Positions 2,141 to 28,612 of a stretch of DNA of 28,612 nt are shown in pieces. The notes beneath the pieces were generated by a model. It was not told the origin of the DNA and did no database searches. It saw only the letters and a program-made list of their open reading frames with translations. The position numbers and the translations under genes were made by a program. Source of the stretch: a virus. The stretch spans positions 1 to 28,612 of the IMG/VR virus record IMGVR_UViG_3300036715_000303. The stretch is one strand, 5' to 3'. Each line of letters begins with the position of its first letter. Within the stretch, counting starts at the first letter, position 1.

Positions 2141-2471
2141 TCAAGATTGCGTCATTCAGAAGCGCGGCTTAAACGACGTGTACGGTATGCCGATACCGGG
2201 CGTCAACGTCAAGGAGCGTTGCACCATCGTCAAGATGAACATCAAGAACGAAAAGTCCTCAGTTCGCGCTGACACTTCCGCTTCTCGTGGCAACGCTCGC
2301 GAATTTGAAGACGATGCGGAATTTCTGCTGAACAAGAATACTGTGGCGCAGATCGACGACGTGATTCTGGTTGATGGTTTTACTTTTCGCATCATGACAA
2401 GGTTTCCCCGTAAGAATCTACAGGGAGTGCCAGATCATGTTCAGATTACCTGCACTTTCTGGAGCGCATAA
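2127..2471 (+). CDS. Putative head-closure protein
   Basis: 114 residues, overlapping the previous gene by 14 bases. The sequence has short beta strands separated by loops, including an internal variable loop (about 42-65, rich in Ser/Arg/Glu) and a C-terminal pattern IDDVILVDGFTFRIMTRFPR. Small beta-barrel proteins of this size at this position in siphoviruses (HK97 gp7, SPP1 gp16 or lambda FII type) close the head and bind the tail terminator. Identity is inferred from size, strand pattern and gene order, not from a diagnostic motif. Confidence 0.5.
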   Translation: MFRPNQDCVIQKRGLNDVYGMPIPGVNVKERCTIVKMNIKNEKSSVRADTSASRGNAREFEDDAEFLLNKNTVAQIDDVILVDGFTFRIMTRFPRKNLQGVPDHVQITCTFWSA

Positions 2472-2473
2472 TA

Positions 2474-2851
2474 ATGAATCTAATGCCGCTCGCACAGCGC
2501 CTTGAAGCTCAAGGCATCGGTATTCAAGGTAGCACAATTTTCATCAACATGATTCCGGCAGAGTGTTCAGAAGGGGTTTTGTTGAGAAACAAATTGCAAG
2601 GCACGTTGATTGACTACGAATTGCCAGGATATTACAAGGCGAAATTTCAACTGATTGTTCGCGCAAAGGGCTATCAGTCTGGCGACGTGCTGATTAAAAA
2701 GGCTATCGCCGCGCTGCTCGTGAACAATACGCAGATTGGCACCATGTACGTGCGATATATGCGACCCGCAACGTTGCCGGTGGTATTTCCGCTATCCAAG
2801 GGCAACCTTATTGAGTTTGCAGTTGACTTTGACGTGCTATTCAACGAATGA
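2474..2851 (+). CDS. Putative tail terminator / minor capsid-type protein
   Basis: 125 residues, starting two bases after the previous stop. It begins with a helical segment (PLAQRLEAQGIGIQG). The strand-helix body that follows, with LPGYYKAKFQLIVRAKGYQS and DVLIKKAIAAL, resembles the small phage 'minor capsid'/tail-terminator families that cap the tail tube (lambda gpU-like role). Its neighbours, a head-closure candidate upstream and an HK97 gp10-like gene downstream, fit this. The last four bases ATGA overlap the next start codon. The family is assigned by resemblance and context. Confidence 0.55.
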   Translation: MNLMPLAQRLEAQGIGIQGSTIFINMIPAECSEGVLLRNKLQGTLIDYELPGYYKAKFQLIVRAKGYQSGDVLIKKAIAALLVNNTQIGTMYVRYMRPATLPVVFPLSKGNLIEFAVDFDVLFNE

Positions 2852-3339
2852 GCTTCAATACTCAGGGCATGGACGAACTAAAGTTGCAACTTCAGCGGCT
2901 TCGAGATGTTCCTATCGCCGCAAATGCGGAATTGAAGAAATGCGCCGGAGAGGTTGCGGACTTAGCGCGTCAAATGGCGCCAATAGATGAAGGTAATCTT
3001 GAGAGGGCCATCAAGGTGCGCTACGAGGGCGTCGAGCGCAATGCTCTTGGTCGGTTCGTCAACGGCGGCGGCGCATATACGATCTACGTAGACAATGATA
3101 TGTCTGTTGACGGTCGCGACGGCAAGACGGTTGGCGACTATGCCTGGATCATGCATGAGCATTTGACGCCGGCTGGAGATATGAATCTAGGGCCGAAGTC
3201 GGAAGAGAAGCAGGCGTCGCAAAGCATTCAGGTGGGCGGCAAGTTTCTCGAACGCGCCAGTGAAGCGATGAGAGATGGCATTTATTCTAGTCTCGCCAAC
3301 GTCGTTCGTAAGTACATTAAGGCTATGGACATTAAGTAG
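2848..3339 (+). CDS. HK97 gp10-like tail completion protein
   Basis: 163 residues, coupled to the previous gene by an ATGA overlap. The N-terminus has the typical gp10/gpZ layout: MDELKLQLQRLRD, then a long helix (AELKKCAGEVADLARQMAP), then the hallmark P-x-DEGNLERAIKV, where the usual family motif is 'P..tG.L..si'. A later segment (about 105-115) contains YAWIMHEHL, matching the 'Y...vE.Gt' position of the family, and the end is a helix (SSLANVVRKYIKAM). The family joins the tail to the head or neck. It is followed by a 63-base gap before the major tail gene. Confidence 0.75.
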   Translation: MSFNTQGMDELKLQLQRLRDVPIAANAELKKCAGEVADLARQMAPIDEGNLERAIKVRYEGVERNALGRFVNGGGAYTIYVDNDMSVDGRDGKTVGDYAWIMHEHLTPAGDMNLGPKSEEKQASQSIQVGGKFLERASEAMRDGIYSSLANVVRKYIKAMDIK

Positions 3340-3356
3340 TCTTTGTGTTAATCTTT

Positions 3357-3376
3357 ATAAGTCACAACTGACTTAT
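3357..3376 (+). repeat. Palindromic element copy 2, perfect 20-base inverted repeat
   Basis: ATAAGTCA (3357-3364) and TGACTTAT (3369-3376) are exact reverse complements around CAAC. It is the most symmetrical copy of the recurring element and lies in the gap before the highly expressed tail tube gene. Confidence 0.75.
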
Positions 3377-3380
3377 TTCT

Positions 3381-3395
3381 CTCTTTGCAAAGGAG
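3381..3395 (+). promoter_or_regulatory. Possible hairpin covering the tail tube gene ribosome binding site
   Basis: CTCTTTGCAAAGGAG can fold into a small stem with a 3-base loop. It would hide the AAGGAG Shine-Dalgarno sequence (3390-3395) that lies seven bases before the ATG at 3403. The stem is short and may not form in the cell. Confidence 0.35.
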
Positions 3396-3402
3396 TTTTT
3401 GA

Positions 3403-4263
3403 ATGAGCGACACAAAAAACGTCAAGATCGGCGTGTGTAAGGTGCTGTATAACGGCGTCGATCTGGGCTATACTCAAGGCGGTGTAGAGGTTACAGTCAA
3501 AACCGAAACCCATAAGGTCATGGTTGACCAGTTCGGCAAGACGCCGATCAATGAGTACATCATGGGCCGCGAAGTGATGGTGAAATGCCCGCTGGCTGAA
3601 ACCACGCTGAATAACTTGGTCGAAATCATGCCTGGCGCAACGCTGTATGAAACTGGTGGCGTGCAAGCAACTGGCACGATGACCATCGCTACGCAGCCGA
3701 CAGACGGTCAGACCGTGAAGATCAACGGCGCGACCGTAACATTTAAGGCGGCGAACCCGAATGCCGCGAACAACGAAGTGCTGATTGGCTCATCTGCGTC
3801 GGCAACTGCGACCAACCTTGCCGCCGCGATTAATGCAACAACCAGCGGCGCTCTGACCGCCGTGACCGCTGCTGCCGCATCGGCAACAGTTACCCTCACG
3901 TCCGTTATGAAAGGCTCTCTTGGTAACAGTATTGCCATTGCAACCGGCACCGCTGGCGCCTCCGTGACTGTTTCTGCAGCCACGCTGACGGGCGGCGTTG
4001 ATGGTACGCCTGCTCGCGTTGATGTTCAAGTCGGCGTCGGCAGCAATCTGCTGGACATCGCCCGTCCGCTTATTCTGCATCCTGTATCCAAGGCTGATAA
4101 CGACCACTCCGAAGACTTCACCGTGTTCAAGGCCGCTACCGCAGGCGCACTGAACTTCGCGTACAAGCTGGAAAACGAGCGCGTCTTCTCCTGCGAGTTC
4201 AACGGCTACCCCGACCCTGTAACCGGCAAGCTGTTTGCAATTGGCGATCCTGCCGCCGCTTAA
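3403..4263 (+). CDS. Major tail tube protein with inserted Ig-like domain
   Basis: 286 residues, with a strong AAGGAG site seven bases before the ATG. Residues 1-86 and about 203-286 form the tail-tube core: an N-terminal strand set with GVEVTVKTETHKVMVDQFGK, and a C-terminal part with FNFAYKLENERVF-type strands (NFAYKLENERVF). Between them, residues about 90-201 form an Ala/Thr/Val-rich domain (DGQTVKINGATVTFKAANP; VTLTSVMKGSLGNSIAIATG). This looks like an Ig-like surface domain of the kind inserted in many phage tail and baseplate proteins. It is internal here, unlike the C-terminal Ig domain of lambda gpV. The gene sits directly before the tail assembly chaperones, which supports the identity. 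The tube polymerises around the tape measure and carries DNA. Confidence 0.85.
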   Translation: MSDTKNVKIGVCKVLYNGVDLGYTQGGVEVTVKTETHKVMVDQFGKTPINEYIMGREVMVKCPLAETTLNNLVEIMPGATLYETGGVQATGTMTIATQPTDGQTVKINGATVTFKAANPNAANNEVLIGSSASATATNLAAAINATTSGALTAVTAAAASATVTLTSVMKGSLGNSIAIATGTAGASVTVSAATLTGGVDGTPARVDVQVGVGSNLLDIARPLILHPVSKADNDHSEDFTVFKAATAGALNFAYKLENERVFSCEFNGYPDPVTGKLFAIGDPAAA

Positions 4264-23271: not shown

Positions 23272-24600
23272 ATGGCAATTGGGTCAGACATAATTACATT
23301 CATCGAAATCTACAACGACACGGACAATTATCCATCCATTGCCGATGTAGCTAAGGCCCTAGATATAAGCATCAAGACGGTTCGCAACAAGGCGGGTTTC
23401 TTGAGAACGCTGACAAAGAACGACCCAAGTGCGCCAAAGGTCATCATGCGCTCACCAATCACGGACATTCCCATGTCTGAGGACGCTTCGAAATTCATGG
23501 AGTCTTGGGGAGCTGAGGATTGCATCGCAGAACTGCGCCGCATCGCGGAGATCGACACCGAACAAATCGTGACGCGCAACTACTTTCGCAATCATTCGCA
23601 TATCTCCGAATCGACATGGAACCGCTACTTCGGAACTTTCGAAGAATTCAAACGCCAAGCCGGTATCAAGCTCTCGCGACAGCAGCACAGCATGGAGCGC
23701 AACATCGCGAAACACGCCTCGGTAGACCATTACCGACGCATGAACGTCGAGCGCATGGACTACGACGACAAATACCTGCGCGAAAACAGTAACCGCTTTA
23801 AAACCGTTATCGCCTGCTCCGATTTGCATGACGTTGAAGTTGACCCATTCTTTCTGCGCGTTCTGATCGACACTTGTAAACGGGTTCAGCCTGACGCCAT
23901 CAACTTCGTCGGTGATGTGTTTGACCTTCCCGAATTTGGCAAGTACAACGTCGATCCTCGCGAGTGGGATGTGGTCGGGCGTATCAAGCATGCGCATGAC
24001 AACATTTTTAGACCATTGCGCGAAGTCTGTCCTAATGCGCAGATGGACTTCGAAGAAGGCAACCATGAAGCACGAATGCTGCGTCATCTTGCCGACGCAA
24101 CGCCAGCCATGAGAGCCGTACTGTCTGATTTGCACGACTTCACGGTAGGCAAACTTCTGGGCCTTGACGAGTTCGAGATCAATTACATTGCGAAAGCAGA
24201 CCTGACCGCCTGGACGAAGCGCGACTTCGAAAAGGAGCTGGCGAACAACTACAAGGTGTATTGGGACACGTTGGTCATGCACCACTTTCCACACGCGCGG
24301 AATATGGGCCTGCCAGGCGTTAACGGTCATCACCATCGACATGAGGTGTGGGGCATGTTTAGCCCGATCTATGGCGCGTATGAATGGCATCAGATGGGTT
24401 GCGGTCATCGTCGCAACGCCTCGTATTGCGAGGGCGAAAAATGGCACATGGGCTTTGCCATCATTAACATTGACACGCATACTCGCGTCACCAATTTCGA
24501 CTACGTGTCGGTGACAGACTTTGCGATATCGGGCGGCAAATGGTATCACCGCAACTCATCCGAACAGGACGTCTCGGTTGCGAAGACGCTCCTGACTTGA
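23272..24600 (+). CDS. Calcineurin-type metallophosphoesterase with N-terminal DNA-binding-like domains
   Basis: 442 residues, with GGAG seven bases before the ATG. The N-terminal 45 residues look like a helix-turn-helix (SIADVAKALDISIKTVRNKA). Residues about 100-132 match the HNH-associated repeat type (SESTWNRYFGTFEEFKRQAG). From residue 180 a full set of metallophosphoesterase motifs is present: SDLHD (Asp184, His186), GDVFD (Asp215), GNHE (Asn264, His265), HH (337-338) and GHHHRH (353-357). The enzyme should be an active dimetal phosphoesterase or nuclease; the substrate is unknown. The DNA-binding-like front end and the neighbouring PhoH, helicase and primase genes suggest a nucleic-acid substrate. 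Only 24 bases separate it from the terminator, leaving no obvious promoter. Confidence 0.85.
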   Translation: MAIGSDIITFIEIYNDTDNYPSIADVAKALDISIKTVRNKAGFLRTLTKNDPSAPKVIMRSPITDIPMSEDASKFMESWGAEDCIAELRRIAEIDTEQIVTRNYFRNHSHISESTWNRYFGTFEEFKRQAGIKLSRQQHSMERNIAKHASVDHYRRMNVERMDYDDKYLRENSNRFKTVIACSDLHDVEVDPFFLRVLIDTCKRVQPDAINFVGDVFDLPEFGKYNVDPREWDVVGRIKHAHDNIFRPLREVCPNAQMDFEEGNHEARMLRHLADATPAMRAVLSDLHDFTVGKLLGLDEFEINYIAKADLTAWTKRDFEKELANNYKVYWDTLVMHHFPHARNMGLPGVNGHHHRHEVWGMFSPIYGAYEWHQMGCGHRRNASYCEGEKWHMGFAIINIDTHTRVTNFDYVSVTDFAISGGKWYHRNSSEQDVSVAKTLLT

Positions 24601-24680: not shown

Positions 24681-25451
24681 ATGAGCAGAAGTAAAGGTGG
24701 CGCACGAGGCGCGAAACCAAGACAACGCGAAAGTAAGAACACGACAGAAGAGTTCTTCTTGCAAGCATCTCAGAAAGTTGAGATAGTTACCAAGAAGCCG
24801 GTAGAGCAACTGAAGGCACGAACCGACTCTCAGCATCGCTACATGAATGCAATCAAGTCCTCCCCTCTGGTGTTTGCTACAGGGCCAGCAGGCACCGGCA
24901 AGACGTATATCTGCGGCGCAATGGCCGCAGAGGCGCTCGACAGCAAGCAAATCGACAAAATCATCATCACTCGCCCCGTGGTGGAAGCGGGCGAAAGTCT
25001 AGGCTTTCTACCTGGCGAACTTGAAGAAAAGTTCGAACCTTTTTTAGCACCATTTCGCGATGTTCTCAACGAGCGTCTCGGCAAGACTTATGTGGACTAT
25101 CTAATCAAGATTGGCAAGATCGAGGCAGCGCCATTAGCTTACATGCGCGGTCGCACGTTCAAGAATGCCTGGGTCATCTTGGACGAAAGTCAAAACACTA
25201 CGCCGGCGCAGATGCGTATGTTTCTCACGCGCATGGGCGAGAACTGCAAGATGATCGTCAATGGCGATATTCAGCAGAAAGACATTTCCGGTATGTGTGG
25301 GCTTGAAGATGCTGTGAGCCGTCTGTCCTACATTCCGTCGCTCAAGATTATTCAATTCACGCGTCGCGATGTGGTGCGCTGCGGCTTGGTTCAGGAGGTG
25401 GTTGAAGCCTATGAGCAGAGGCTTGGGGCCGACGCCTCTATTCGCTATTGA
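24681..25451 (+). CDS. phoH: PhoH-like ATPase
   Basis: 256 residues, preceded by a modest GAGAGCGGA. The first 50 residues are basic and probably disordered (MSRSKGGARGAKPRQRESKN). The PhoH core follows: Walker A GPAGTGKT (68-75), the family stretch IIITRPVVEAGESLGFLPGE (94-113), YMRGRTF (154-160), Walker B WVILDE (164-169) and the sensor region VNGDIQQKD. PhoH proteins are P-loop ATPases related to the N-terminal part of superfamily 1 helicases. They are widespread in phages and their exact phage role is not settled; RNA or DNA remodelling is the usual proposal. It stands between the metallophosphoesterase and an unknown gene in the replication side of the genome. Confidence 0.92.
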   Translation: MSRSKGGARGAKPRQRESKNTTEEFFLQASQKVEIVTKKPVEQLKARTDSQHRYMNAIKSSPLVFATGPAGTGKTYICGAMAAEALDSKQIDKIIITRPVVEAGESLGFLPGELEEKFEPFLAPFRDVLNERLGKTYVDYLIKIGKIEAAPLAYMRGRTFKNAWVILDESQNTTPAQMRMFLTRMGENCKMIVNGDIQQKDISGMCGLEDAVSRLSYIPSLKIIQFTRRDVVRCGLVQEVVEAYEQRLGADASIRY

Positions 25452-25478: not shown

Positions 25479-25508
25479 TTAACGCTATAAGTTAATACTG
25501 TCTATAAT
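25479..25508 (+). promoter_or_regulatory. Promoter with palindromic element copy 8
   Basis: TATAAT at 25503-25508 is a perfect -10 box; TTAACG (25479-25484) is a moderate -35 with an 18-base spacer. The spacer holds AAGTTA-ATAC-TGTCTA (25489-25504), a near copy of the recurring palindrome that runs into the -10 exactly as at 26268. A TTAAC/GTTAA inverted repeat also overlaps it. It would drive the unknown gene starting near 25543. Confidence 0.6.
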
Positions 25509-25542: not shown

Positions 25543-26265
25543 ATGACCCAAAGACCTACATGGTTGGGGAGCTTTTATGGAGGGAGTCTCGGCTTTCTGA
25601 ATTACGAAGTTCTCTCAATTCAAAATGTGCCACACAAGGATCTCGCAAAAGAAGCGGAGCTGATGAGTGTCAAGTGGTTCGACTATCGTCGGCTACACCC
25701 TATGCAGACGACCTATTACTTTGTGAAATGTTACACCGACGCCTACCGCGACTTCTGTCGCAAGGCGATCAACGCCGAGACAGCCCCATACGTTCGGGCA
25801 ATTAAGCAGCACGACTTTTTGGAAGCGAAGGAGAAGCTCTCGTTTTGGCGTATGCGTCAACTGTGCGACCGGATGGGTGTGCGCTATGATTTCTTTCTGA
25901 GCTTTGCAATGTCTTGGCTGCACAAGATGATCGGTGACGGCAAGGTGTATCCGCCACGCCCCTCGCAAATCATGAACAATGAGGATCTCGTTGCTTCAGC
26001 AATGCTGGCGTGGGAAGAGCAGTGTCAGATTTCCATGCAGGTCGCTCGCGACCCATATTATCGCGTACCAAACTTCGTTGGTAGTAGAGATCAGCAAGCG
26101 CACGAGGCTTTCGTCATCGGCCAAGTCAAGTCGCGCAACGTGCCGCAATACTCGCTTCATGCTGCGCTTTATCTATATGACGTAGTGAGAATTGAGGAAG
26201 CACTACGACACTTTGACGCGAGAGTGGTGAATATGGCAATAAATGAGGTTCGGTTGCCTGGTTAG
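25543..26265 (+). CDS. Unrecognised replication-region protein
   Basis: 240 residues from the ATG at 25543, chosen because GCGGA lies about nine bases upstream. An in-frame ATG at 25534 directly abuts that GGA and is less likely. The protein is rich in Tyr, Phe, Trp, Met and Arg and mostly helical (FWRMRQLCDRMGVRYDFFLS; HAALYLYDVVRIEEALRHFD). It also has a KWFDYRRLHP segment. Scattered Cys and His do not form a clear zinc motif. I do not recognise a family. It has its own promoter, follows PhoH and precedes the Sm-like and helicase genes, so a role in early nucleic-acid metabolism is reasonable but unproven. Confidence 0.7.
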   Translation: MTQRPTWLGSFYGGSLGFLNYEVLSIQNVPHKDLAKEAELMSVKWFDYRRLHPMQTTYYFVKCYTDAYRDFCRKAINAETAPYVRAIKQHDFLEAKEKLSFWRMRQLCDRMGVRYDFFLSFAMSWLHKMIGDGKVYPPRPSQIMNNEDLVASAMLAWEEQCQISMQVARDPYYRVPNFVGSRDQQAHEAFVIGQVKSRNVPQYSLHAALYLYDVVRIEEALRHFDARVVNMAINEVRLPG

Positions 26266-26267
26266 AT

Positions 26268-26287
26268 AAGTCATTACTGACTATAAT
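26268..26287 (+). promoter_or_regulatory. Promoter with palindromic element copy 9
   Basis: AAGTCA-TTAC-TGACTA (26268-26283) runs directly into TATAAT (26282-26287). No convincing -35 lies 16-18 bases upstream (TGGTTA at 26259 is poor). The palindrome may therefore be bound by an activator or other factor that replaces -35 contacts. It begins three bases after the upstream stop codon. Confidence 0.55.
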
Positions 26288-26341: not shown

Positions 26342-26356
26342 GCAAGGAGGATTCTC

Positions 26357-26680
26357 ATGCAACAAGATCAAATTCGCGCCGACCAACAAGCCTATGCCCG
26401 TCAGGTCGAAGGAACACTTCATCGTCCTGCCGTAACGCGCAAACCTCTCAAGAGCGCAAATGCACCGAAGGGTCATGAGGCTTTTCTCAAGGCGCTAGAA
26501 GCGTCCGGTCAGATCGTTTACTTTGAAAAGGCCAGTAGCGGCGAGCGCGTGGTCGGCAAGATCAAAACATCCGACAAGTACACCATCAGCGTCATAACCG
26601 AGGTCGGAACCCGCGTTCTGTTCAAGCATGACGTTTCTGAATTCTTCGCGCCGCGCCAAACGTCAGCCGAGACGAACTGA
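26357..26680 (+). CDS. Hfq/Sm-like RNA-binding protein
   Basis: 107 residues from the ATG at 26357, which has a perfect AAGGAGG (26344-26350) six bases upstream. A GTG at 26288 is in frame but lies at the predicted promoter. Residues 1-38 are polar and basic. Residues about 39-99 have the Hfq layout: a helix GHEAFLKALEASG, Sm1 with SGERVVGKIKTSDKYTISVI (compare Hfq 'nGi.l.G.I.sfD.fvill'), and Sm2 with RVLFKHDVSEFFAP, including the Lys-His pair (90-91) that marks Hfq ('YKHAIST..P'). A short tail follows. It probably forms a ring and binds AU-rich RNA. The likely targets are phage or host mRNA or sRNA. It ends one base before the helicase start. Confidence 0.72.
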   Translation: MQQDQIRADQQAYARQVEGTLHRPAVTRKPLKSANAPKGHEAFLKALEASGQIVYFEKASSGERVVGKIKTSDKYTISVITEVGTRVLFKHDVSEFFAPRQTSAETN

Positions 26681-26681
26681 T

Positions 26682-28139
26682 ATGAGCGTTATGTGTCCTG
26701 CGACGGTGGAAGAATCCGTCGTAAAAATGATTGGCGAAAGTTTCACTGATGCTGCTGCATTAACGAAAACGGAAGCAGAAGTGGAGACAGTTGGTTTCTT
26801 CAGTATGGACGAAGGGTTTGACGCTGACTTTCAGACCAAGATCGCAGCATTTGCCTGTCGTGATGATGAGTTTATGCGTCGCGTGGCACACTTGCTCAAG
26901 CCAGATTACTTCGAGAATGCCGGTGAAGCCGCGCTGGTGAACATTGCTCTGCGTCACTTTGCTAAATACCGCTGTGTGCCGGATAACGTCTCGATGGCAG
27001 CGGCGATTCGTGAAGACGTTGCAGCAAAGATCATTCGCAAGGATGTGTTGCCGCTGGTCGTCGCGCAACGCAAGGTTATTTTGCATGACGCGCTGAGAAA
27101 TCGCGAGTATGTCGAGGACAAGGTGGTTGAGTTCGTGAGACATCAGGCGGTAGGCGCAGCTCTGCTAAAGTCTGTTGATTTGCGCGATAGGCGGCAGTTC
27201 GACAAGATAACCGCACTGATGAAGACAGCTATCGACATCGGGCTAAATGAAGAAGGTGACGGCTACGATTACGCCGCCCGCATCGGCGACAGAACGACAG
27301 AGCGTCTGGACAAAGTGTCAGGCAAGCGACCGCCGCAAGGCATCACAACCGGCATTGTCAAGATGGATGAAATGCTCTATCACCGGGGCTGGGGTCGCAA
27401 AGAGCTGGCGGCGATCATGGGGGCAGCGAAGGCCGGTAAGACGGCAAGTTTGATTAACTTCGCGCAGGCCGCGTCACTGGCCGGTTATAATGTCCTGTAC
27501 GTCACGCTTGAGGTTGGCGCAGGTATTATTGCTGATCGCATGGACGCGAGTATTTCATCGACCATGATGAAGGAGCTGTCGGACAAGATTCACGGCGTTC
27601 GCGAAAAGGTTGAAGAGGCAATGGCGAAAGCTGGTCGTCTGATTATCCACGAATACGCATCTGGCACGATGTCGCCCAACATGCTGCGAAAGCTGATTGA
27701 GCGCTACAAATCGCCAGGGCGCAATGTTGATGGATCTGTACGCCCGATCACCAAGTTCGATCTGATCGTGGTTGACTACGCTGACATCATGGCGCCCAAC
27801 TACCGCACTCAGGACACCATCGAGAACTCAAAGTCGGTCTATGTGGATCTTCGTGCGATTGCATTCGAAGAGAATGTAGCAATGCTGACAGCTACACAAG
27901 CCAACCGCGAGGGTCATAAAGCGGCGGTGGTGAAAGCGGAACACGTCGCAGAGGACTTCAACAAGGTTCGGACGGTCGACCTGATGATCTCCATCAATAA
28001 GACGGAAGAAGAGGCCCGTGATGGCATTGCGCGACTGTATTTCGCCGCCTCACGCAATCAGGAGTCCGGTTTTACCATAGTCATTAAGCAGAATTTGGCA
28101 TGTATGCAGTTTGTTACATCCGTCCTGCGAATCGAGTAG
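26682..28139 (+). CDS. Replicative DNA helicase, DnaB/gp41-like
   Basis: 485 residues from the ATG at 26682, one base after the previous stop. The open frame extends upstream inside the Sm-like gene to 26628 and an ATG at 26691 is also possible. The N-terminal part (about 40-190) is helical like DnaB/gp41 N-domains. The RecA-like motor follows with Walker A GAAKAGKT (247-254), YNVLYVTLEVG, Walker B LIVVDYADIM (Asp365), and MLTATQANREG corresponding to DnaB motif H3. The end has YFAASRNQESGFTI. It should form the hexamer that unwinds the phage fork; the primase begins two genes downstream. The ribosome site is weak, so coupling to the Sm-like gene is likely. Confidence 0.9.
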   Translation: MSVMCPATVEESVVKMIGESFTDAAALTKTEAEVETVGFFSMDEGFDADFQTKIAAFACRDDEFMRRVAHLLKPDYFENAGEAALVNIALRHFAKYRCVPDNVSMAAAIREDVAAKIIRKDVLPLVVAQRKVILHDALRNREYVEDKVVEFVRHQAVGAALLKSVDLRDRRQFDKITALMKTAIDIGLNEEGDGYDYAARIGDRTTERLDKVSGKRPPQGITTGIVKMDEMLYHRGWGRKELAAIMGAAKAGKTASLINFAQAASLAGYNVLYVTLEVGAGIIADRMDASISSTMMKELSDKIHGVREKVEEAMAKAGRLIIHEYASGTMSPNMLRKLIERYKSPGRNVDGSVRPITKFDLIVVDYADIMAPNYRTQDTIENSKSVYVDLRAIAFEENVAMLTATQANREGHKAAVVKAEHVAEDFNKVRTVDLMISINKTEEEARDGIARLYFAASRNQESGFTIVIKQNLACMQFVTSVLRIE

Positions 28140-28191: not shown

Positions 28192-28380
28192 ATGGAATCG
28201 AAAGTTATCGAAGATGCAATCGCCAAGGTTAGAGGCAACGGGTTCTACAGTGGCGCAACTGAGCGGCGTCTACGTCGCATTGTTGCCAACTTGAGAGCCT
28301 GCGGCATCAGTTGTGACATGATGATCGCTGAGATAATTATGGACTTCTGGGCAACGGTTAGCGTCGAATACGATGAATGA
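28192..28380 (+). CDS. Small protein between helicase and primase genes
   Basis: 62 residues from the ATG at 28192, chosen for the AAAGGGAA just upstream; the frame is open further back but without such a site. It is largely helical: an Arg-rich segment TERRLRRIVANLRACG followed by an acidic end (FWATVSVEYDE). No family is recognised. Its place between helicase and primase suggests a replication accessory, for example a helicase or primase partner, but that is only position. Its last eight bases overlap the next gene. Confidence 0.6.
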   Translation: MESKVIEDAIAKVRGNGFYSGATERRLRRIVANLRACGISCDMMIAEIIMDFWATVSVEYDE

Positions 28381-28612
28381 AGATTTGGGTGAAATTCTTA
28401 AATCTATTGATGTCGAGTATTGGCTTGATAGGGAAGGTGTCGATTACAAGAAGACGCGAGGCGCTCGTGGGCTTCAGGCAAATGTTAAAGAATGCCCATG
28501 CTGTGGAAATTCGAACTGGAAAGTGTATATAGGACTAGATACAGGGCTTGGAAACTGTTTCGTTTGCGAGAAGAAATTTAATCTCTGGAGCTTCATACGC
28601 TCCAGCTTGGGT
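28373..28612 (+). CDS. DNA primase, N-terminal zinc ribbon (partial)
   Basis: 80 codons are inside the window and the frame is open at its end. The start ATG overlaps the previous gene by eight bases. Residues 41-65 form a zinc ribbon with Cys41 and Cys44 (ECPCCGN) and Cys62 and Cys65 (GNCFVCEKK), and the sequence continues FNLWSFIRSS. This is the usual front end of CHC2/gp61/T7 gp4-type phage primases, which use the zinc site to recognise the priming sequence. Together with the helicase upstream it completes the primosome. The catalytic TOPRIM part lies beyond the window. Zinc ribbon: clear; primase identity: strong by pattern and context. Confidence 0.75.
   Translation, partial: MNEDLGEILKSIDVEYWLDREGVDYKKTRGARGLQANVKECPCCGNSNWKVYIGLDTGLGNCFVCEKKFNLWSFIRSSLG

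Follow-up and report, generated by a model that had tools for sequence, protein, structure and literature searches.

A phage Hfq-like protein gene in a fixed position beside the replicative helicase, with most proximal-pocket residues of Hfq kept or conservatively replaced

Introduction

In a stretch of viral DNA of 28,612 nt, here called the window, a short open reading frame lies immediately ahead of the gene for a replicative helicase, and a sequence-only reading had proposed that it encodes a phage version of Hfq that could redirect host sRNAs, guard phage RNA or act in replication. The questions raised by the locus are whether this protein, here named SmL, truly belongs with Hfq, and which of the surfaces used by Hfq it has retained. 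Hfq-like proteins of other phages and phage-plasmids are already annotated, in scattered entries, and no functional study of a phage-encoded Hfq was found in the literature searched. As far as the collections and literature were searched, the identity of the SmL family, its fixed slot and its pattern of kept and lost surfaces are new.

The SmL gene and its immediate neighbours

The SmL gene (26357..26680, plus strand, as are the neighbouring genes and elements given below) starts with ATG at 26357, ends with TGA at 26678-26680 and encodes 107 amino acids; a Shine-Dalgarno sequence, AAGGAGG, is located at 26344..26350. The assignment draws on the sequence, homology, an AlphaFold2 model and codon substitution. 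Across close copies dN/dS was 0.07-0.21, with the differences mostly in third codon positions, and SmL is therefore a real gene under purifying selection. Neither a tRNA nor an Rfam match was found in the whole window.

The genes upstream of SmL encode a metallophosphoesterase (23272..24600, PHROG match and locus comparison), a PhoH-like ATPase (24681..25451, Pfam and PHROG match) and a protein of phrog_2500 (25543..26265, PHROG match and AlphaFold2 model). Downstream is a DnaB-like replicative helicase (26682..28139, phrog_19, 2.4e-76), the start codon of which lies 1 nt past the SmL stop codon, followed by the N-terminal part of a DNA primase (28373..28612), which is cut by the window end and was recognized from the position of the primase in homologous loci.

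Homology and predicted structure of SmL

The only Pfam match of the single SmL protein was Hfq (PF17209; E=1.6e-4, 21.7 bits), which does not reach the gathering score of 27 bits. Within an alignment of 37 sequences, 36 matched the same family, the best with an E value of 8.1e-11. A profile of the family retrieved Hfq chains from the PDB, with S. aureus 1kq1 as the best match (4.2e-8) and a lone non-Hfq chain among the matches listed, at E=0.51, and hhalign aligned the family with E. coli Hfq at 2.4e-7. PHROG 5258 and PHROG 19781, to which no function is assigned, were matched by 35/37 and 33/37 family members respectively and are identified here as Hfq/Sm-like.

The AlphaFold2 model, a monomer built on the same alignment, contains a helix (residues 40-50) and five strands (53-58, 64-72, 76-80, 85-89 and 93-97), with a mean pLDDT of 92-96 per ten-residue block over residues 41-100. 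It thus has the alpha1 helix and the five-stranded Sm fold, and lack of that fold had been named beforehand as one observation that would count against an Hfq-like protein. Foldseek comparison of the model with the PDB gave Hfq in all of the best 50 matches listed, with TMt values up to 0.92, and the top match was 1kq2, an Hfq-RNA complex; among viral models an 89-aa protein of phage nickie was matched, which is the product of the gene in the same slot. By fold and by profile SmL belongs to the Hfq/Sm superfamily, and on this point Pfam, family profile, hhalign and structural comparison bear out the original proposal.

The nearly invariant core of the alignment reads KGHEA(F/Y)LKxL ... G ... 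D(K)(Y/F)T ... V(I/L)FKH ... F. The alpha1 segment, residues 38-50 (KGHEAFLKALEAS, 26468..26506), lines up with Q8-D9-P-F-L-N-A-L of Hfq by alignment, hhalign and model, and K38, G39, H40, E41, A42, L44, K45 and L47 are invariant. The Sm1 and Sm2 segments picked out from the letters were both found in place. Alignment and model locate strands beta1-beta3 of Sm1, with G67, D73 and K74-Y75, at residues 53-80 (26513..26596), and strands beta4-beta5 of Sm2 at residues 85-97 (26609..26647). The latter region includes the segment VLFKHDVSEF (residues 87-96), in which V87, F89-K90-H91 and F96 are invariant.

Ahead of the conserved KGHEAFLKAL helix is an N-terminal extension of 37 residues (26357..26467, alignment and AlphaFold2 model), about 32 more than in E. 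coli Hfq. An extension of 38 residues had been reported as foreign to host Hfq; that it is real was upheld, but its length is not fixed, ranging in the family from 14 to 68 residues with a net charge of +1 to +5. In the model a helix is predicted for residues 2-18 with moderate confidence, followed by a basic linker of low confidence. The extension is poorly conserved, too weakly so to carry a functional argument. The C-terminal tails of the family, with a median length of 11 aa, are short and carry little net charge, and the acidic C-terminal tail is missing.

SmL therefore resembles bacterial Hfq (PF17209; S. aureus 1KQ1/1KQ2, B. subtilis 3AHU and E. coli) in its N-terminal helix, five-strand Sm fold, Sm2 F/Y-K-H and pocket residues D40, K41, Y/F42, K56 and H57. 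It differs in sharing only about 20-25% identity, in having His for Q8, in keeping neither the rim patch nor the distal site, and in its extension, short C-tail, variable beta3-beta4 loop and location in a phage replication cluster. Against the NCBIfam Hfq equivalog TIGR02383 it scored 19.1 bits where the cut-off is 61.7. SmL is not an Hfq equivalog, since it scores below the cut-off and lacks the rim and distal features.

Two other Sm-like proteins bear on the assignment. Rof, which is homologous to Hfq and adopts an Sm-like fold, inhibits Rho (PMC11018626), and by analogy SmL could be a Rho antagonist that spares phage transcripts from termination. Among PDB chains, however, the SmL profile retrieved Hfq but not Rof up to E=1, and SmL keeps the RNA pocket of Hfq, for which a Rho-binding decoy would have no need; we give this explanation very little credence. 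The second is 3BY7, which we take to be a phage-associated Sm-like protein from a cyanophage, and which likewise gave no match to the profile in the PDB up to E=1. In T4-like marine viruses the gene for the cyanophage Sm-like protein is found beside terminase and sheath genes (PMC2530865), rather than beside a helicase gene as is SmL.

Kept and lost surfaces of Hfq

Residues of the proximal pocket were compared across the 37 aligned sequences. The equivalents of K56, H57 and D40 were present in all of them, Q41 was replaced by K in 35/37 and position 42 was Y, F or W in 36/37; S. aureus Hfq also has K-Y at positions 41-42 in the alignment. The Y/F-K-H signature of Sm2 was found in every sequence as F89 K90 H91. 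Q8, the base-reading residue in Hfq, is His throughout (37/37), so that four of the five positions Q8, 41, F/Y42, K56 and H57 are kept or conservatively replaced. Judged from the alignment, the proximal pocket appears largely kept. The proximal face of Hfq binds U/A-rich RNA, and His57, in contact with the 2'-OH of the ribose, favours RNA over DNA (PMC10628458); with the Lys-His pair invariant, RNA binding by the SmL pocket is plausible.

The other two surfaces have gone. In the rim arginine patch R16 is replaced by E, Q or H, R17 is variable and R19 is G in 27/37 sequences, while in the distal A-rich site Y25 is E in 24/37 and I30 and K31 are variable. In E. coli Hfq the rim arginines drive annealing and the distal surface is used for mRNA binding (PMC10628458). 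The pattern agrees with a protein that would bind RNA by its proximal face only, and because the rim patch and distal site are gone SmL is not expected to act as a general matchmaker of sRNA and mRNA.

A full mimic of Hfq that takes over the sRNA networks of the host would account for the homology and for the retention of the proximal pocket. In Hfq this pocket holds the 3' U tails of sRNAs, for which SmL could compete. It is nevertheless very unlikely, given the lost rim arginines and distal site, the equivalog score and the lack of an acidic C-terminal tail. The redirection of host sRNAs, one of the roles first suggested for this protein, is thus not favoured, R16/R17/R19 and Y25, I30 and K31 having been lost.

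The rim also bears on a role in particle assembly. During neck assembly T4 transiently recruits a hexamer of E. coli Hfq, which is bound to gp14 and serves as a second gate (PMC12270204), and SmL could be a phage-encoded stand-in for this plug. However, R19, one of the Hfq residues at the T4 interface, is G in 27/37 family members, and the SmL gene lies in the replication cluster, with the neck gene (phrog_927, window 2848-3339) about 23 kb away. We consider such a function highly improbable.

A promoter-like element upstream of SmL

Between the phrog_2500 gene and SmL, motif comparison identified a promoter- or operator-like element, AAGTCA-TTAC-TGAC-TATAAT (26268..26287), and a weaker second copy is located upstream of the phrog_2500 gene (25489..25508). 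The element, AAGT(C/A)A-N4-TGA-(N)-CTATAAT in general form, combines the inverted repeat AGTCA/TGACT with a perfect -10 box directly next to it, and precedes SmL in nearly all of the loci L001-L049. As a regular expression it occurred 29 times in 32 loci (346 kb), mostly upstream of SmL, and not once in any of 20 shuffles. Ten large phage records of 107-118 kb together contained 23 exact copies, with none in the reversed control. Eight of the ten records carried it (those behind L013, L021, L031, L037, L038, L039, L043 and L049), with 1-5 copies per ~110-kb phage, all on one strand within each record. The distribution suggests a phage-wide class of promoter or operator and co-expression of SmL with the replication genes.

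Proposed activity of SmL

The reading that we prefer, with a probability of about 0.6, is that SmL forms an Hfq-like ring which binds U/A-rich single-stranded RNA on its proximal face and acts early on phage RNAs, without sRNA-mRNA matchmaking. The protein would be made, probably, from its own sigma70-type promoter along with the helicase and primase, and this shared expression makes an early function likely. By analogy with Hfq it would assemble into a ring, presumably a hexamer, and short U- or A-rich RNA could be held round the pore by H40, K74, Y75, K90 and H91. The basic N-terminal arm would project from the proximal face and may add contacts to RNA or to a partner. Bound in this manner, SmL may protect or steer the transcripts of the phage, or RNA with a part in its replication.

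Conservation of the gene neighbourhood

The scan of IMG/VR yielded 49 SmL loci, and 65 with the alignment. The order metallophosphoesterase, PhoH, phrog_2500, SmL, DnaB, a variable gene and primase is conserved. The phrog_2500 gene is directly upstream of SmL in 64/65 loci, the remaining locus ending at a contig edge, and DnaB is directly downstream in every one of the 65 whose contig extends that far. The helicase neighbour noted in the window was thus seen wherever the contig allowed. In one locus (L016 / L081 4328-7138) DnaB carries a large in-frame intein-type insertion immediately behind the lysine of Walker A (GGPKAGK|CVTRD ... VSHN|TT), by which the helicase is split in the search.

The phrog_2500 protein has 28 invariant residues, and its AlphaFold2 model is all-helical with a pLDDT of 91.7. 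Against the PDB this model gave no significant match, the few insignificant ones being sigma-factor domains. A function as helicase loader was considered for it, but the confident helical model did not decide the mechanism.

When three members of the SmL family were compared by tblastn with 50,697 phage records no match was obtained, and cultured relatives were therefore located by way of DnaB and phrog_2500 instead. A pattern-based scan of genome contigs with the SmL family likewise gave no confirmed relative, a result that does not prove absence. By DnaB the nearest named relatives are phage-plasmids of A. baumannii (56%) and Nickievirus (46-47%), and further relatives include Rhizobium, Stenotrophomonas and SSU5-like elements. 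Divergent Hfq-like proteins, some already annotated as Hfq, fill the SmL slot in Nickievirus and the Acinetobacter phage-plasmids. The slot is empty in SSU5, Klebsiella pJN2-26, Rhizobium phages, Pararhizobium p5 and a Parasutterella contig. SmL is an accessory gene inside a conserved replication module, and since several relatives with the same helicase lack it, it does not belong to the core functions of replication.

The linkage nonetheless raises the possibility of a replication accessory, a ring that binds ssDNA, primer RNA or the helicase and aids helicase and primase at the fork, with RNA regulation no part of its job. The invariant association with DnaB, the gap of 1 nt and the nearby primase would all suit such a protein, and Hfq of E. 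coli both binds ssDNA and influences the replication of M13 (PMC10392684). The ssDNA effect depends chiefly on the C-terminal tail of Hfq (PMC10392684), however, which is absent in SmL; the RNA-favouring His57 equivalent is invariant, and relatives that share the helicase-primase pair do without the gene. On balance this explanation is rather unlikely. Less likely still is that a branch of Hfq was recruited into the phage replication module as a ring, translated directly before the helicase, that handles primer or origin RNA at the fork, a role that, to our knowledge, has not been described for any Hfq.

Hfq-like proteins in the SmL slot of named relatives

The proteins in the Nickievirus slot (nickie gp117, YP_009620715; Nican01_00034, annotated 'RNA-binding protein Hfq'; hairong_042) share with SmL the position between phrog_2500 and DnaB, an NGH..ILK helix and an Sm1 of the form GxVTQFDNYTI, and that of hairong clears the Pfam Hfq cut-off with 31.4 bits. 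They differ in being only 22-25% identical to SmL and, in nickie, Nican01 and phiK7B1, in having FKS in place of FKH. As the gene is retained in phages such as nickie although the His of Lys-His is lost, the pocket is perhaps not what matters in every member.

The AB-like phage-plasmids of Acinetobacter have in the same slot WP_000614153 ('RNA chaperone Hfq', pPB364_1) and WP_000005905 (hypothetical), with VLFKHQISEF and VIFKHNLVMF at Sm2; the pPB364_1 protein clears the Pfam Hfq cut-off with 27.7 bits. These proteins have long N-terminal extensions (143-179 aa in all) and only weak similarity to SmL. A. baumannii possesses an Hfq itself (PMC5663733), and because its phage-plasmids carry the slot copy all the same, a host need not lack Hfq. 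A supply of Hfq for hosts without one was ruled out as the purpose of SmL on this ground.

With 65 loci and a fixed gene order the SmL family offers a clean set for probing a phage Hfq that has the proximal pocket alone. Nickievirus and the Acinetobacter phage-plasmids have the gene, while SSU5-like elements and Rhizobium phages form natural controls without it, and two PHROG families to which no function had been assigned gain an identity.

Further observations were made on individual loci. In Stenotrophomonas phage BUCTxx99 (L054 3821-4030) the slot holds a 69-aa protein that is Sm-like by eye, for which hhalign, Pfam and NCBIfam gave no Sm support; it could be an Sm protein that has diverged still more, or a replacement of unrelated origin. 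The Parasutterella muris contig (L061) has the order PhoH, phrog_2500, DnaB and primase without SmL, and its metallophosphoesterase (2273-4225) contains an apparent intein-type insertion (NHE|CISLDTEV ... NFTGN|C). In three Acinetobacter phage-plasmids (L063, L064 and L065) the gene for a plasmid replication initiator of the RepM or RepB family is located upstream of phrog_2500, at the place occupied by PhoH in the group of the window.
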